Source: Pedobacter indicus (lineage in GTDB: Bacteria; Bacteroidota; Bacteroidia; Sphingobacteriales; Sphingobacteriaceae). From it: a DNA stretch of 64,000 nucleotides. Below are positions 39,770 to 45,750 of this stretch, in pieces. The stretch is taken from NCBI RefSeq assembly GCF_003449035.1, contig NZ_QRGB01000001.1, forward strand, positions 496,001 to 560,000. Direction: 5' to 3'. How positions within the stretch are numbered: the stretch's first letter is position 1; each line of letters begins with the position of its first letter. The position numbers and the translations under genes are program-made. The notes beneath the pieces were generated by a model. That model was given only the letters and a program-made list of their open reading frames with translations, was not told where the DNA came from and ran no database searches.

Positions 39770-42232
39770 ATGAAGCGCCCAGCCTTATTACTTCTATTCT
39801 TTTCCCTTGTCTCCATTTTTACTCTCCAACCAATATACGCACAAAAAAAATCGACTATTCAAGGTAAACTGATTGACCAATCAACTGAATTAGCCGTTGA
39901 TTTTGCCAGTGTTGCAATCTTTAATGAAGCAAATACGCAGGTAGCAGGTATGCTTTCCAATGAAAATGGTGGATTTTCTTTCGACGGACTAGCCGGAGGA
40001 GAATATATTATTAGAATTTCCTTTGTAGGATACGAAAAATATGAAGCACCGGTTTCCCTAAACGCCAGCGAAAACAAAAACCTGGGAACCATTTTACTTA
40101 AGCCCGCTTCAGCTGAAGAACTGGATGAAGTGGTCATTGAAGCAGAGCTCCCTGATATGCGCCTGGGTATCGATCGGAAAGTTTTTAACGTTTCACAGAG
40201 TCTTGTTAGTGAAGGAGGCTCTGCAACAGATCTACTAGCTAATGTTCCGTCATTGTCCGTCGACATGGATGGAGCCGTAAGTCTACGAGGGTCAAACAAT
40301 GTCCGCATTCTAATAGACGGAAAACCATCAGCCATGGCGGGAAGTGATATCACTCAGACCCTGCAATCGCTACCAGCAAACTCTATTCAAACAATCGAGG
40401 TAATCACAAACCCTTCCTCTAAATATGACGCAGAAGGCCAGTCAGGCATCATCAACATCGTTTTGAAAAAGAATGTACGTCAAGGACTTAATGGTATTAT
40501 TACCGCGTCCGGCGGATCGTATGACAATTATGATGGAGGTATAAGCTTAAACTATCGTGATGAAAGGTTCAATTATTACGGAAACTACAATTTTCGTAAA
40601 TCAAACCGCGTTGGCGATGGCTTCAACAAGAATACTAATTTACTGAACAATGGGATCACTGAAAATTCCAGTGAAAATTCCCGAAAAGGCAATGGTCACT
40701 CGGGAAAAATTGGAGTCGACTATAATATCAGTGAAAGAACTACAGTCGGTTTGTCAAGTAATTTTAGCATTCGTGACAACAATCGATCTGAGTACTTATT
40801 TTATCAATACTTCAATCAGCCGGACCTAACAGGTACCAGTGATAGGACAACAGAACAAAATGAAGATGACTTAGGCTATGATGTCAACTTAGATCTCAGA
40901 CATGACTTTAACCGACCTGGTGAGAACCTGATGGTCAATCTCTCTTATGGAAAAAGCACTGAAGATGGTATACAACATTTCAATCAAGTCTTTTCAGAAT
41001 CTAACCAACCCGATGATCAGCGCATTAACAACACATCTGAAGTAGGTATAAATACCAACATACAAATCGACTATGTTTTGCCCTTCGATGAAGAACATCG
41101 CTTGGAAGCAGGCTTCCGAACATCCATACGCAATGATGATGAAGAGCAGATTTCAGACAGATTCGATCTAGCTACTAACTCGTTTGTGCGTGATTACGAT
41201 CTGACAAACCGTTTTGATCTAGAGGATATTGTTCACTCAATCTACAGTAATTACCAAAACAAAATAACAGACAAACTCGGATTTCAAGTAGGCCTCCGTC
41301 TGGAACAGGCTTACCTGAATACAGTTTATGAGTCGCTTGATCCCTCTACACCTGAAGATGAACGGGAAACAGAAGGTAAGCTTGATTACTTAAGATTGTA
41401 CCCAAGTCTGTTTCTTACGCAAGAATTAAGTGAAGGGGAACAATTACAGGCAAGTTATACCCGGCGAGTACGTCGACCTCGCGGATGGCAGGTGAATCCA
41501 TTTATTAATATTTCTGATCCGATGAATATACGAATGGGTAATCCCAATCTTTTGCCGGAAGACATTCATTCATTCGAGTTAAGCTATGCAAAGTTCTGGC
41601 CCAGCATAACGTTTACTTCTTCAGTTTATCATCGCCGTGTCAATGACGGTGTAGAAAGTATCCGGGCCAGCGTAAACGAGGAAACCTCTGCTACCGTATC
41701 GCAATGGTACAACATCAGTCGAAATGATGCAACCGGTTTCGAGTTAATCTCAAAGATTACATTTAGTCCAAAAATCGATGCAACTGCTAACTTCAATGCC
41801 TTCTATAACAAATATTTTGGCAGCGAAGAGCATAATCTGGAACCAACTGACGGATTTAATTGGGATGCAAACATCAGCAGCAATGTCAAAATTACAAATG
41901 ACCTTACCGCACAAGTCCGGGCGCAATATAATGCTCCTAAAACAATGGCGCAAGGGACATCCATCGCTTCCTTCGTTATGGACGCCGGAGCCAAAATGGA
42001 TATATTAAACAAGCGAGGCAGCATCATGCTCAATGTGCGGGATCTTTTCAACCAACGACGCTGGGGCGGCACAACGTCTACCGCACAATTTTCACAGGAA
42101 TTTGAAAGGCGCTGGATGCGAAGAATGGTTACGCTGTCGCTAAGTTATCGTTTCGGAAGAAGTGATTTTAACACAAAACAACGCGATCGCAATCAAGAAG
42201 AAAGTTTTGGAAATGACGAGCCTCAGTTCTAA
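39770..42232 (+). CDS. TonB-dependent-receptor-like outer membrane beta-barrel protein
   Basis: An 820-residue outer membrane protein. After a signal peptide (about 1-24, ending YAQ) comes a carboxypeptidase-regulatory-like domain (IQGKLIDQSTELAVDFASV). A plug domain follows (about 130-230: LLANVPSLSVDMDGAVSLRG, VRILIDGKPSAMAG, NSIQTIEVITNPSSKYDAEGQSGIINIVLKK). A large 22-strand-type barrel takes up the rest, ending with a near-C-terminal SLSYRFG segment. It is of the outer-membrane-beta-barrel family rather than SusC, and no susD follows. The cargo is unknown. It appears monocistronic. Confidence 0.9.
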   Translation: MKRPALLLLFFSLVSIFTLQPIYAQKKSTIQGKLIDQSTELAVDFASVAIFNEANTQVAGMLSNENGGFSFDGLAGGEYIIRISFVGYEKYEAPVSLNASENKNLGTILLKPASAEELDEVVIEAELPDMRLGIDRKVFNVSQSLVSEGGSATDLLANVPSLSVDMDGAVSLRGSNNVRILIDGKPSAMAGSDITQTLQSLPANSIQTIEVITNPSSKYDAEGQSGIINIVLKKNVRQGLNGIITASGGSYDNYDGGISLNYRDERFNYYGNYNFRKSNRVGDGFNKNTNLLNNGITENSSENSRKGNGHSGKIGVDYNISERTTVGLSSNFSIRDNNRSEYLFYQYFNQPDLTGTSDRTTEQNEDDLGYDVNLDLRHDFNRPGENLMVNLSYGKSTEDGIQHFNQVFSESNQPDDQRINNTSEVGINTNIQIDYVLPFDEEHRLEAGFRTSIRNDDEEQISDRFDLATNSFVRDYDLTNRFDLEDIVHSIYSNYQNKITDKLGFQVGLRLEQAYLNTVYESLDPSTPEDERETEGKLDYLRLYPSLFLTQELSEGEQLQASYTRRVRRPRGWQVNPFINISDPMNIRMGNPNLLPEDIHSFELSYAKFWPSITFTSSVYHRRVNDGVESIRASVNEETSATVSQWYNISRNDATGFELISKITFSPKIDATANFNAFYNKYFGSEEHNLEPTDGFNWDANISSNVKITNDLTAQVRAQYNAPKTMAQGTSIASFVMDAGAKMDILNKRGSIMLNVRDLFNQRRWGGTTSTAQFSQEFERRWMRRMVTLSLSYRFGRSDFNTKQRDRNQEESFGNDEPQF

Positions 42233-42265
42233 AATTTCTTTTCTACGACTTTGGGTAAAAAAATG

Positions 42266-42273
42266 TAGCTTTG
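42266..42273 (+). promoter_or_regulatory. -7 element of the small four-helix membrane protein gene
   Basis: TAGCTTTG fully matches TAnnTTTG and lies 23 nt before the ATG at 42297. Confidence 0.45.
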
Positions 42274-42296
42274 GGGAAACAAGAAATTAAAACATC

Positions 42297-42746
42297 ATGA
42301 ACTTACATTTGGCATTAAAACATCTGCACTCAGGATGGCGTTATGTTGCTTTGTTATTAATTATACTCGCAATTATTAGTGCATTCTCTGGTTGGTTTGG
42401 AAAAAACAACTATACTGAAGGCAACCGAAAACTTAACCTGTTTACGTTAATAGCTTTCCATTTACAAGCATTAATTGGCATCATTCTCTATTTTGTAAGT
42501 CCAAAAGTCAGATTGGACGATATGGCCATGGCGATGAAAGACAGTATTAGCAGATATTGGACCGTCGAGCACCTGTTTATGATGCTTATTGCCGTTATAC
42601 TCATTACCATTGGACACTCCAAATCGAAAAAGATTGCTGCTTCATTTCAAAAGCATAAAACCATTGCGATCTTCTATACACTCGCACTAATCATTGTAAT
42701 TGTTGGGGTTAGTATGAGCGGAATACCAATATGGGCAATGTCTTAG
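42297..42746 (+). CDS. four-helix integral membrane protein, cytochrome b-like
   Basis: A 149-residue protein with four predicted membrane helices (about 17-35, 48-68, 90-108, 121-143). Histidines sit at membrane edges: H7 and H11 in LALKHLHSGW, H55 in LIAFHLQALIG, H92 in VEHLFMM and H106 in TIGHSKSK. Proteins of this type are often labelled cytochrome b or copper-resistance-like, because the histidines could hold haem or metal, but no experimentally defined function is visible here. It stands between the receptor gene and the trp leader. Confidence 0.75.
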   Translation: MNLHLALKHLHSGWRYVALLLIILAIISAFSGWFGKNNYTEGNRKLNLFTLIAFHLQALIGIILYFVSPKVRLDDMAMAMKDSISRYWTVEHLFMMLIAVILITIGHSKSKKIAASFQKHKTIAIFYTLALIIVIVGVSMSGIPIWAMS

Positions 42747-42784
42747 AAAAATAATAAGAAATTAGGTTTTGTAATAAATCTTCT

Positions 42785-42792
42785 TAAATTTG
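42785..42792 (+). promoter_or_regulatory. -7 element of the trp leader and trpEGC
   Basis: TAAATTTG fully matches TAnnTTTG; TTAG (42762-42765), one mismatch from TTTG, lies 19 nt upstream. Transcription would start close to 42796-42800, at or just before the leader ATG, so the leader peptide mRNA may be nearly leaderless. Confidence 0.5.
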
Positions 42793-42798
42793 TCATCG

Positions 42799-42846
42799 AT
42801 GATGAACAATACATATACAACTAGCTGGTGGTGGTGCAATAAATAA
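42799..42846 (+). CDS. trpL: trp operon leader peptide with three consecutive Trp codons
   Basis: A 15-codon open frame reading MMNNTYTTSWWWCNK then TAA. The three adjacent TGG codons at 42826-42834 are far above chance in so short a frame, and the ORF sits just before trpE with a terminator between. This is the classic layout of a ribosome-mediated attenuator: scarcity of charged tRNA-Trp stalls the ribosome on the TGG run. There are two tandem ATG codons (42799 and 42802) and either may start. No purine-rich ribosome-binding site is visible. Confidence 0.85.
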   Translation: MMNNTYTTSWWWCNK

Positions 42847-42848
42847 GC

Positions 42849-42921
42849 ACGCCGGGCTACACGTATATTAAAAATATTAAACCTTATTTAAGACCCGACG
42901 TATAAAATGTCGGGTTTTTTT
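42849..42921 (+). terminator. trp attenuator: antiterminator strand and intrinsic terminator
   Basis: Terminator stem ACCCGACG / TGTCGGGT (42893-42900 and 42908-42915, one G-T pair) with a 7-nt loop, continuing into a run of seven T (42915-42921). Its 5' arm can pair instead with ACGCCGGG at 42849-42856 (seven Watson-Crick pairs, one mismatch), three bases after the leader stop. A ribosome stalled on the Trp codons would leave that strand free, while one at the stop codon would cover it. TAGC at 42822-42825 can pair with GCTA at 42856-42859 as a protecting stem (weaker). Confidence 0.82.
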
Positions 42922-42941
42922 ATGCTTCAAAACACAGGAAA

Positions 42942-44357
42942 ATGAAGAAATTAAACATTTCAACAACTTTCAGAAAAATGCTCGCTGATACCACAACACC
43001 AGTAAGTATTTATCTACGTTTAAGAGATATCTTTCCCAATAGTCTTCTGCTGGAAAGCTCTGACTATCACAGCAGAGAGAACAACATGAGCTATGTCTGT
43101 TGTGTGCCGATTGCCGGAATAACGCTTAACCGTAACCAACTGGAAATAAACTATCCAGATGGAGAAAAAGTAACCAAACCCTCTGACACAGTCGATATCC
43201 GGAAGGAAATTTCTGCGTTTTGTAGCTCAATTAAAGCCGACAAAGCAGATGTAAAGTTCATCTCAAACGGCCTGTTTGGTTATTTCACTTTTGATGCCGT
43301 CCAACATTTTGAAGACATCAAACTCACAACAGAACCAACAAAGGAGAAAGACATTCCGTTTATGCAATATCATATCTATCAATATGTTATAGCAATTGAC
43401 CATTTTAAAAATGAACTTTATATCTTCGAGCATACAACAGGCGACAAAGAACCCTACGGCTTAGATCAAATAGAATACTTAATCCAGAATAAAGATTTCC
43501 CGGATTACCAATTTTCGTTAAACGGATCGGAAAACTCAAACTTCAGCGATACAGAATTTAAAGACCTTGTCGAGACCATGCGTAAACATATTTACCGCGG
43601 CGACGTGTTTCAAATTGTCCCCTCAAGAGCTTTTTCACGAGCCTTTTTAGGAGATGAGTTCAATGTATACCGGGCACTCCGATCAATTAACCCGTCGCCG
43701 TATCTTTTTTATTTTGACTACGGAAACTTTAAACTATTCGGTTCATCACCTGAATCACAGCTTACAATTAAAAATGGAGAAGCAGCTATCTATCCAATTG
43801 CCGGAACATTTAAGCGAAGCGGCAATGACAAGGAAGATAGTGCGATAGCCGATGCGTTAAAAAATGACCCAAAAGAGAGCGCAGAACACGTGATGCTAGT
43901 CGACTTAGCCAGGAATGATCTCAGCAAACATTGCGAAGAGGTCCATGTTCAATCCTTCAAAGAATCACAATTCTACTCCCATGTTATACACCTTGTATCG
44001 AAAGTGACCGGACAACTGCGCGACGGAGTTAACCCCTTTGACATTGTTGCTGACACTTTTCCCGCAGGCACCTTAAGCGGATCTCCCAAATACATGGCCC
44101 TCACTTTAATAGACCGCTACGAAACCATTCAACGGAGCTTCTACAGCGGGGCAATCGGCTTTATGGGATTCAATGGCGATTTCAATCATGCTATCATGAT
44201 CCGTTCATTTTTAAGTAAACAAAACACACTGCACTATCAGGCTGGTGCAGGAATCGTCGCAGATTCCAACGCAGAAAGCGAGCTAAAAGAAGTTGACAAT
44301 AAAATTGCAGCACTAAGAAAAGCACTGGAATTCGCTGAAACCATTAATAAGAATTAG
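42942..44357 (+). CDS. trpE: anthranilate synthase component I
   Basis: A 471-residue chorismate-using enzyme making anthranilate with ammonia from TrpG. Conserved catalytic-domain elements are YPIAGTFKRSG, MLVDLARNDLSKHCEEV, and FPAGTLSGSPKYMALTLID. The N-terminal LLESSDYHSRENNMSYVCC region corresponds to the tryptophan feedback site (LLES motif). The start is the ATG about 20 nt after the attenuator T-run. First structural gene of trpE-trpG-trpC; trpG begins 9 nt after its stop. Confidence 0.96.
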   Translation: MKKLNISTTFRKMLADTTTPVSIYLRLRDIFPNSLLLESSDYHSRENNMSYVCCVPIAGITLNRNQLEINYPDGEKVTKPSDTVDIRKEISAFCSSIKADKADVKFISNGLFGYFTFDAVQHFEDIKLTTEPTKEKDIPFMQYHIYQYVIAIDHFKNELYIFEHTTGDKEPYGLDQIEYLIQNKDFPDYQFSLNGSENSNFSDTEFKDLVETMRKHIYRGDVFQIVPSRAFSRAFLGDEFNVYRALRSINPSPYLFYFDYGNFKLFGSSPESQLTIKNGEAAIYPIAGTFKRSGNDKEDSAIADALKNDPKESAEHVMLVDLARNDLSKHCEEVHVQSFKESQFYSHVIHLVSKVTGQLRDGVNPFDIVADTFPAGTLSGSPKYMALTLIDRYETIQRSFYSGAIGFMGFNGDFNHAIMIRSFLSKQNTLHYQAGAGIVADSNAESELKEVDNKIAALRKALEFAETINKN

Positions 44358-44366
44358 AACAGGTAT

Positions 44367-44951
44367 ATGAACACAACAGTTAAAAAAGAAGTTGTTATTA
44401 TCGACAACTATGATTCTTTCACTTTTAACTTGGTACACTTATTAAATGAGTGTGGATACGAAGCAACGGTATGGAGAAATGATAAATTTGCCTTAGAGGA
44501 TTTAGAAGGCTTCGATAAGATCATGCTTTCTCCCGGTCCGGGGATTCCCTCAGAATCAGGATTACTATTGGATGTTATCAAAGAGTATGGTGATAGAAAA
44601 AGTATTTTAGGTGTTTGCCTCGGATTGCAAGCTATTGCTGAAGTATACGGAGGAAAACTCTATAACCTATCGAAGCCTGTGCACGGCACAGCTACGCCCA
44701 TTAAGATCTTAAAAGCCGACGATGTACTATTCCAGGACCTCCCTCATTCATTTAAAGTAGGTCGCTATCACTCATGGGCGGTGGAAAAAGAAAACCTACC
44801 GCCCGAGTTAGAGATAACAGCCGTCGACGAAGAAGGCGTAATCATGGCAGCAAGCCATAGAACATTAGACGTTAGGGGCGTGCAATTTCACCCTGAATCG
44901 ATTCTCAGTGAACACGGTGTCAAACTCATCAGCAATTGGCTTACGCATTAA
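44367..44951 (+). CDS. trpG: anthranilate synthase component II (glutamine amidotransferase)
   Basis: A 194-residue class I glutamine amidotransferase supplying ammonia to TrpE. The nucleophile is C84 in GVCLGLQAIAEVYGG, with H175 and E177 in QFHPESILSEHG. The N-terminal IDNYDSFTFNLVHLL is typical of TrpG/PabA. It may also serve p-aminobenzoate synthesis, as in other bacteria with a single copy, but that cannot be seen here. The next gene is trpC, 10 nt on; a trpD gene, often found at this place, is absent. Confidence 0.95.
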   Translation: MNTTVKKEVVIIDNYDSFTFNLVHLLNECGYEATVWRNDKFALEDLEGFDKIMLSPGPGIPSESGLLLDVIKEYGDRKSILGVCLGLQAIAEVYGGKLYNLSKPVHGTATPIKILKADDVLFQDLPHSFKVGRYHSWAVEKENLPPELEITAVDEEGVIMAASHRTLDVRGVQFHPESILSEHGVKLISNWLTH

Positions 44952-44961
44952 TAAAAACATT

Positions 44962-45750
44962 ATGAACATATTAGAAAAAATTATTCAGCATAAACGAAAG
45001 GAAGTGAGCGACGCCAAAGCACGTACTACGGTTCGCGACTTAGAGTCGATGCCCCTGTTTTCCAGAGACCCTTATCGTCTGAAAGATTTCGTTTTCGATC
45101 CGGCAAGAAACGGGATTATCTCTGAGTTTAAAAGAGCGTCCCCTTCTAAGGGTATGATTAACAAGCACTCAAAAGTTGAAGAGATTGTCACAGCCTATGC
45201 TAACAATAAAGTCTCCGCTATTTCAGTCCTAACTGATTCTGATTTTTTTGGCGGAAGTCTTGACGATCTATTAGCCGCCAGAAAACAAGTTAACGTTCCG
45301 CTATTACGTAAAGAGTTTATTATTGATGAGTTTCAAATTATCGAAGCGAAAGCTTACGGTTCAGATATCATCTTGCTTATTGCATCTTGCTTAACACCTG
45401 CCGAGATCATCCAATTATCTTCATCGGCAAAGAACTTAGGTTTAAACGTACTGTTGGAAGTCCACAATGAAAAAGAATTAGCCGATAACCTGATTATGAC
45501 GGTTGACGCGATCGGTGTAAACAACCGCAATTTAAATGACTTCAGTGTTTCCCTTGATCACTCACTTAATTTGATTAGTCAGATACCAGACCAGTATATT
45601 AAAGTGTCGGAAAGTGGAATCAGCGAAGTCGATACGATCAAAAAGCTTAAAACAGCTGGTTTTAACGCATTTCTGATTGGAGAAAACTTTATGAAACAAG
45701 AAAGTCCGCAACAGGCCATTGCCAACTTTGTGAGCGAATTAGCTGAATAG
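44962..45750 (+). CDS. trpC: indole-3-glycerol-phosphate synthase
   Basis: A 262-residue TIM-barrel enzyme forming indole-3-glycerol phosphate. Signatures are ILEKIIQHKRKEV at the N-terminus, the catalytic segment IISEFKRASPSKGMI, PLLRKEFIIDEFQI, VNNRNLNDF and VSESGISEVDTI. I start at ATG 44962, 10 nt after trpG; an in-frame ATG at 44908 lies inside trpG and adds residues outside the family. It is the last trp gene here and is a stand-alone TrpC, not fused to TrpF. It converges with anmK (15-nt gap). Confidence 0.96.
   Translation: MNILEKIIQHKRKEVSDAKARTTVRDLESMPLFSRDPYRLKDFVFDPARNGIISEFKRASPSKGMINKHSKVEEIVTAYANNKVSAISVLTDSDFFGGSLDDLLAARKQVNVPLLRKEFIIDEFQIIEAKAYGSDIILLIASCLTPAEIIQLSSSAKNLGLNVLLEVHNEKELADNLIMTVDAIGVNNRNLNDFSVSLDHSLNLISQIPDQYIKVSESGISEVDTIKKLKTAGFNAFLIGENFMKQESPQQAIANFVSELAE

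Follow-up and report, generated by a model that had tools for sequence, protein, structure and literature searches.

The window, i.e. the whole stretch of 64,000 nucleotides of Pedobacter indicus DNA that was analysed, carries a trpE-trpG-trpC unit behind a short leader that combines a promoter box, a tryptophan-rich open reading frame and a terminator hairpin (Table 1). Among the named matches listed, the closest TrpE outside the Pedobacter indicus genome is that of Albibacterium bauzanense with 83% identity. Most other named matches belong to genera that we assign to the Sphingobacteriaceae, and the family used for comparison (f1) is taken to be this family. Directly 5' of the leader lies a gene (42297-42746) for a hydrophobic protein of 149 amino acids without a match in Pfam or NCBIfam, which ends 52 nt before the leader ATG; a similar-looking gene end is visible by eye 5' of the leader in some relatives, such as L020 and L028.

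Table 1. Elements of the trp leader and its genes, in window numbering, and the second Trp leader on G000:C1
Feature	Position	Strand	Remarks
Promoter box TAAATTTG, Bacteroidota -7 type (TAnnTTTG)	42785..42792	+	ends 6 nt 5' of the first leader ATG
Leader peptide ORF MMNNTYTTSWWWCNK with stop	42799..42846	+	15 codons; stop 42844-42846
Three adjacent TGG (Trp) codons	42826..42834	+	predicted stall site; part of strand 1
Strand 2, antiterminator strand ACGCCGGG	42849..42856	+	pairs with 42894-42901 (7/8)
Strand 3, terminator 5' arm	42890..42901	+	
Strand 4, terminator 3' arm	42907..42918	+	T-run 42915-42921
trpE, anthranilate synthase component I	42942..44357	+	
trpG, glutamine amidotransferase of anthranilate synthase	44367..44951	+	
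trpC, indole-3-glycerol phosphate synthase	44965..45750	+	last gene of the trpE-trpG-trpC unit
Second Trp leader	2603355-2603478 (G000:C1; L212, L214)	minus	RF01692 match, 47.9 bits

An earlier note on this DNA had described a 15-codon reading frame with three adjacent TGG codons, a strand just after its stop that can pair with the 5' arm of a terminator, and an 8-bp terminator stem with a T-run before trpE. The reading frame and its Trp codons were confirmed, a second in-frame ATG at 42802 giving alternatively 14 codons, and so was the strand, whose duplex with strand 3 contains a single C/A mismatch among 8 positions. The terminator and its T-run stood as well, and only the length of the stem had to be corrected, as the hairpin of 42890-42918 has 12 pairs (G-T included) and a loop of 5. 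The leader RNA folds with -33.7 kcal/mol (z -3.65), and 198 of 200 shuffles fold less well; the terminator scan taken alone is unremarkable, with 2 terminators found against 1.8 expected.

This arrangement is conserved. A search for TrpE gave matches at 135 places, in 134 of 151 family genomes, and the upstream region was read for 90 of these places, namely the 30 best and 60 picked to cover the genera. A short ORF with WW or WxW followed by a terminator precedes trpE at 85 of the 90 loci, in 19 of the 21 genera read. For the class, 63 of 198 genomes have a TrpE at E<=1e-80; outside the family this gives 58 places in 57 genomes; 40 of these places, from 23 families, were read, and a Trp-rich leader with terminator was found at 32 of these loci (20 families). 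With 135 class genomes giving no TrpE match at E<=1e-80, the count for the class is limited to TrpE of this kind. Irrespective of the terminator, a WW or WxW leader is present at 86 of the 90 family loci and 33 of the 40 others, and a terminator follows 85 of the 86 and 32 of the 33, a single leader in each group being without a detected one. Under a strict first rule (WW, terminator loop <=9) the leaders numbered 76 of 90 and 29 of 40, with a terminator behind 62 and 24 of them; WxW leaders and longer loops turned up among the misses, and the finder was therefore relaxed to accept WW or WxW and loops of up to 14. This widening was made after seeing the data, and the controls use the widened rule: the finder accepted 1 of 650 mono-shuffled upstream regions and none of 130 reverse complements. 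In a set of 80 named genomes, which overlaps the first set and was not added to the counts, the strict WW rule found 58, and the 22 that it missed include 21 named Pedobacter.

Eleven loci have no WW or WxW leader, four in the family (three of genus g3, one of g9) and seven outside it, one of which (L104) offers only 194 bases to read. By eye, the three g3 loci (L034, L035, L036) have a single Trp at the usual place and the g9 locus (L046, genome G008) has CWC followed by a lone W, with a terminator-like hairpin still behind in each case; these leaders are possibly weakened sensors. In genus g14 (L059-L065) and family f12 (L110-L112), WxW in the forms WLW, WQW and WRW replaces WWW. Many family leaders also share a block (ATCAAcC-AAaCCTTA) between strand 2 and the terminator, of which positions 42877-42886 of the window (TTAAACCTTA) are part. 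Its motif AAACC[TA] occurs in 37 of 85 family leaders (3.4 expected from shuffles) and 3 of 32 other loci, and ATCAA.C in 35 of 85 (1.9 expected) and 1 of 32. Pairing of this block with the Trp-codon strand was considered and rejected, since it reaches p<=0.05 in 3 of 85 loci, the chance level.

Both alternative stems covary. The energy of the duplex between strand 2 and strand 3 beats that of shuffles of the spacer at p<=0.05 in 71 of 85 family loci and 14 of 32 others, and when partners were swapped, with one locus per genus in the family and one per family outside it, the own partners scored higher than the swapped ones in all 5000 permutations, be it for the family (19 loci), outside it (20) or for both together (39). 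In a covariation alignment (A1) of 27 leaders from 19 genera, each of at most 130 nt, the terminator is 99.6% paired over the 27 rows and both sides have changed in 5 of its 9 pairs; the antiterminator is 82.5% paired, with 15 doubly changed cells. None of 500 shuffles, which do not keep relatedness, reaches these percentages or cell counts; the antiterminator has 3 doubly changed pairs, a number that 150 of the 500 shuffles equal. Shifting the partner by 1-3 columns lowers the pairing to at most 50.0% for the terminator and 41.7% for the antiterminator. For the duplex of strands 1 and 2, p<=0.05 was reached in 49 of 85 family loci. In 77 of the 85, the leader ORF already contains the start of strand 2; in the other 8, the window among them, strand 2 begins behind the first base of the stop codon, and in E. 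coli it likewise lies just after the leader stop. The earlier note had carried over the logic of ribosome-mediated attenuation to this locus and had proposed a comparison with relatives as its test; that comparison was run, and the conservation of the Trp codons and of both stems, together with their covariation, supports the reading rather than refuting it.

The position of the promoter is likewise shared. At 66 of 85 family loci and in 48 of 3400 shuffles, the end of the TAnnTTTG box lies 4-10 nt 5' of an in-frame leader start; any in-frame start was allowed for the loci but a single one for the shuffles, and with both held to a single start per locus the numbers are 58 of 85 and 42 of 3400. 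Outside the family, the same box at the same distance was found at 14 of 30 loci (9 of 1200 shuffles), and again at 14 of 30 with one start per locus (7 of 1200). The exact box at this distance is absent from all 15 loci of genera g5, g7, g8 and g20, most of which have near variants of the box in a similar place by eye. Of the 66 family loci, 56 have a TTG 17-20 nt 5' of the box, most often at 18 nt (44 loci), and by eye none is seen at this spacing 5' of the box in the window. A transcriptome study places TAnnTTTG at -12 to -5 (PMC9723704, accessible text), which with the gap of 6 nt in the window predicts a 5' UTR of about 2 nt, in line with the earlier note, where the peptide ATG was expected to have at most a very short 5' UTR ahead of it. 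For the family, the box position thus predicts a nearly leaderless leader. In Bacteroidota, leaderless or very short 5' UTRs are rare according to the accessible text of two studies, with about 3.7% of 5' UTRs under 10 nt in B. thetaiotaomicron (PMC7366714) and 5.5% leaderless in F. psychrophilum (PMC9723704). At the trpD loci described below, the box precedes an in-frame start in only 3 of 29 readable cases, at 17, 25 and 41 nt. Bacteroidota initiate translation without Shine-Dalgarno pairing. Tentatively, and with slightly more doubt than belief, we propose that the Sphingobacteriaceae trpE leader might be carried on a leaderless RNA, with the promoter fixing where that RNA begins, that the first ribosome might bind the emerging 5' AUG, and that this immediate loading, not a ribosome-binding site, might couple ribosome and polymerase; as the trpD-F-B-A leader lacks that spacing, a leaderless and a leadered version of the switch would then exist in one cell.

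How the position of the ribosome may affect the choice between the stems was calculated for the nascent RNA, scoring the pairing of strand 3 with upstream RNA for a ribosome that is stalled, at the stop codon, or absent (free). For a ribosome of finite footprint, the values are 0.78 stalled, 0.40 at the stop and 0.11 free in the window, 0.62, 0.04 and 0.30 in the E. coli trp leader, which served as control in the same calculation, and 0.82, 0.48 and 0.51 in the trpD leader of the Pedobacter indicus genome. The calculated switch resembles that of E. coli, with a weaker contrast at the stop codon. In a blocking model, where the RNA begins at the first Trp codon, stops just short of the 3' arm and is kept wholly unpaired up to the front edge of the ribosome, the family medians are 0.77 stalled, 0.07 at the stop and 0.40 with shuffled spacers; the contrast between stalled and stopped exceeds 0.3 in 83 of 85 loci, and 48 of 85 do better than the shuffles (p<=0.05). 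Outside the family, the same model gives 0.67, 0.19 and 0.52, with a contrast above 0.3 in 25 of 32 loci and only 5 of 32 beating the shuffles at p<=0.05. When the whole leader and a finite footprint are used, the family medians become 0.58 free, 0.77 stalled and 0.48 at the stop, those outside the family 0.37, 0.67 and 0.52, and the contrast exceeds 0.3 in 42 of 85 and 13 of 32 loci, respectively. The contrast between the stalled and the stopped ribosome therefore depends on the footprint assumed. A likely reason why it shrinks is the location of strand 2 inside the ORF in 77 of the 85 family loci, where a ribosome at the stop codon no longer covers it. The stalled value exceeds the free one by 0.2 in 38 of 85 family loci, so that protection without a ribosome appears uneven. 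In the complete RNA at equilibrium, the terminator prevails whichever ribosome state is assumed (0.99 for the window, 0.83-0.86 for E. coli, with the same outcome for the trpD leader), from which we infer that the switch must be kinetic, i.e. co-transcriptional. The attenuation switch of the E. coli trp operon is established as kinetic.

Sequence and comparison establish the parts, their conservation, the covarying pairings and the promoter position, and a ribosome-mediated transcription attenuator very probably controls trpEGC, where we infer the start site, translation, stalling, termination and the response to tryptophan. Transcription would start about 2 nt before the leader ATG, and a ribosome would load near the 5' end and translate MMNNTYTTSWWWCNK. 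With ample charged tRNA-Trp it would reach the stop codon at 42844 and cover strand 2 (42849-42856), so that strand 3 would fold with strand 4 and transcription would end at the T-run. If tRNA-Trp is uncharged, the ribosome would stall on the UGG codons, covering strand 1 and freeing strand 2, which could then pair with strand 3 before strand 4 is made, so that no terminator would form and trpE would be transcribed. In the absence of a ribosome, strand 1 would hold strand 2 and the terminator would form.

The remaining trp genes lie about 2.06 Mb further along the same contig as trpEGC, behind a leader of their own that encodes MNNNNVNINWWWHKG with WWW and ends in a terminator. The genes behind it match trpD, trpF (phosphoribosylanthranilate isomerase), trpB and trpA, with the trpF assignment resting on models that score below their cut-offs. 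The genome has 43 TGGTGGTGG sites, and only 2 of them belong to a short ORF that has a start codon and is followed by a terminator no more than 220 nt away; one of these units stands before trpEGC, the other before trpD-F-B-A. A search for a His leader by the same logic gave 18 CAYCAYCAYCAY sites in the genome, none of them in a short ORF followed by a terminator. For trpD in 61 family genomes there were 49 matches, 30 of which were read; one (L223) is cut by a contig end and unreadable, and 28 of the 29 readable ones have a W leader and a terminator, the other (L224) having a leader with the terminator undetected. Shuffles of the 29 readable upstream regions gave a leader with terminator in 0 of 580 cases. 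If the second leader acts alike on trpD-F-B-A, both halves of the pathway would read the charging of tRNA-Trp.

The presence of this second leader in cis bears on whether the leader of trpE might act mainly in trans, its terminated RNA or its peptide regulating other genes as rnTrpL and peTrpL do in Sinorhizobium meliloti, where, according to the accessible text of PMC7298713, rnTrpL acts in trans to make trpDC mRNA less stable. Termination is predicted to yield a leader RNA of about 120 nt here as well, but trpD-F-B-A has its own cis leader and terminator, and we consider a main role in trans improbable. In the attenuator reading, the charging of tRNA-Trp is the signal, and other candidates for tryptophan sensing were looked for: no Trp repressor scores over the cut-off in the 61 family genomes, with one genome having a match below it, and the Pedobacter indicus genome has no match at E<=0.1 to TRAP (TrpBP protein, PF02081) or to the T-box RNA (RF00230), which agrees with attenuation as the earlier note had read it. 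In TnaC, free tryptophan is sensed via arrest of the nascent peptide. Free tryptophan rather than tRNA-Trp charging could be sensed in this way here, since the TnaC and trp leaders both use a Trp-containing peptide; yet the peptides of different genera share little besides the Trp run, biosynthetic genes should switch on at low tryptophan, and the calculated release of strand 2 at the Trp codons fits stalling there, so that we regard such an arrest as very improbable, even more so than action in trans. That the hairpin does no more than terminate the upstream gene, with the WWW ORF a product of chance, might be suggested by the 52-nt distance and by a scan of 41500-44000 that found no other terminator on the + strand, but it is refuted by the recurrence of leader and terminator in the family and in other families, with a promoter box moreover lying between that gene and the leader, and has practically no chance of being correct.

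Ribosome-mediated attenuation of this kind is already known, also from Bacteroidota. The Rfam family RF01692 (Bacteroid-trp) dates from 2010, when it was placed among the likely cis-regulators of Bacteroidetes (Weinberg et al. 2010, PMC2864571, accessible text). Like the element of the window, it is a Trp peptide leader of Bacteroidetes, and the trpE leader L106 of another family (f54) matches it with 62.4 bits. The window scores 31.2 bits against RF01692, below the curated cut-off of 49, and 23.3 bits against RF00513 (Trp_leader), below its cut-off of 41, and Rfam at gathering score finds nothing in the window; sub-threshold matches to STnc240 and L20_leader seem to rest on the terminator and were discarded. 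The element of the window very probably works like a trp attenuator but is not a curated RF01692 member, and it probably shares descent with the Bacteroid-trp leaders. In the 61 family genomes (50 with TrpE), a search with stricter filters that lose weak matches gave 11 RF01692 sites at E<=0.01, of which a single one exceeds the cut-off; trpD follows directly behind 10 of them, the remaining one (G015) is at a contig end with no gene seen behind, and none is a trpE leader. At gathering score, RF01692 matched none of 13 trpE loci from the family and 1 of 7 from outside it.

Compared with E. coli trpL, the window has the same adjacent Trp codons, strands 1 to 4 and terminator before trpE, the same location of strand 2 just after the leader stop, and a similar calculated behaviour. 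It differs in having three Trp codons instead of two and a Bacteroidota-type promoter that almost touches the ATG, in the split of the pathway over two units with one leader each, and in the Trp repressor, for which E. coli has a match and the 61 family genomes have none over the cut-off. Its predicted nearly leaderless start is comparable to that of trpL/rnTrpL of S. meliloti, a leaderless leader before trpE whose transcript starts with the trpL ATG; S. meliloti is an alphaproteobacterium in which one of three trp operons is attenuated, whereas both units have a leader here (PMC7298713, accessible text). For Flavobacterium psychrophilum, a different species of a different family, the accessible text of PMC9723704 and PMC6414381 gives strong clues for leader peptide attenuation before amino-acid operons and a Bacteroid-trp element before the trp operon, and does not describe these leaders as leaderless. 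The earlier note had called attenuators less familiar in this phylum; trp leaders of this kind are on record there in RF01692 and these two papers. Our literature search found no report of a trp-operon attenuator for Sphingobacteriaceae, earlier mention in subscription papers being possible, and none that joins Bacteroidetes, tryptophan, transcription attenuation and leader peptide, where earlier mention is likewise possible; it also found none on leaderless transcription starts in Sphingobacteriaceae, and PMC2965389 contains no word beginning with Bacteroid.

What is new here is the spacing of promoter and leader with the nearly leaderless start it predicts, the second WWW leader with its terminator before trpD-F-B-A, and the lack of a Trp repressor over the cut-off in 61 family genomes. 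Judging from the comparison, trpE usually stands behind a trp attenuator in Sphingobacteriaceae, for which no Trp repressor is detectable, and commonly does so in the other families of the class; where tested, most of these leaders do not reach the current Rfam cut-off. With its two units, each behind its own leader, the split pathway is a natural two-copy system for studying control by tRNA charging, and the nearly leaderless start would allow tests of leaderless coupling of translation and transcription without Shine-Dalgarno pairing.
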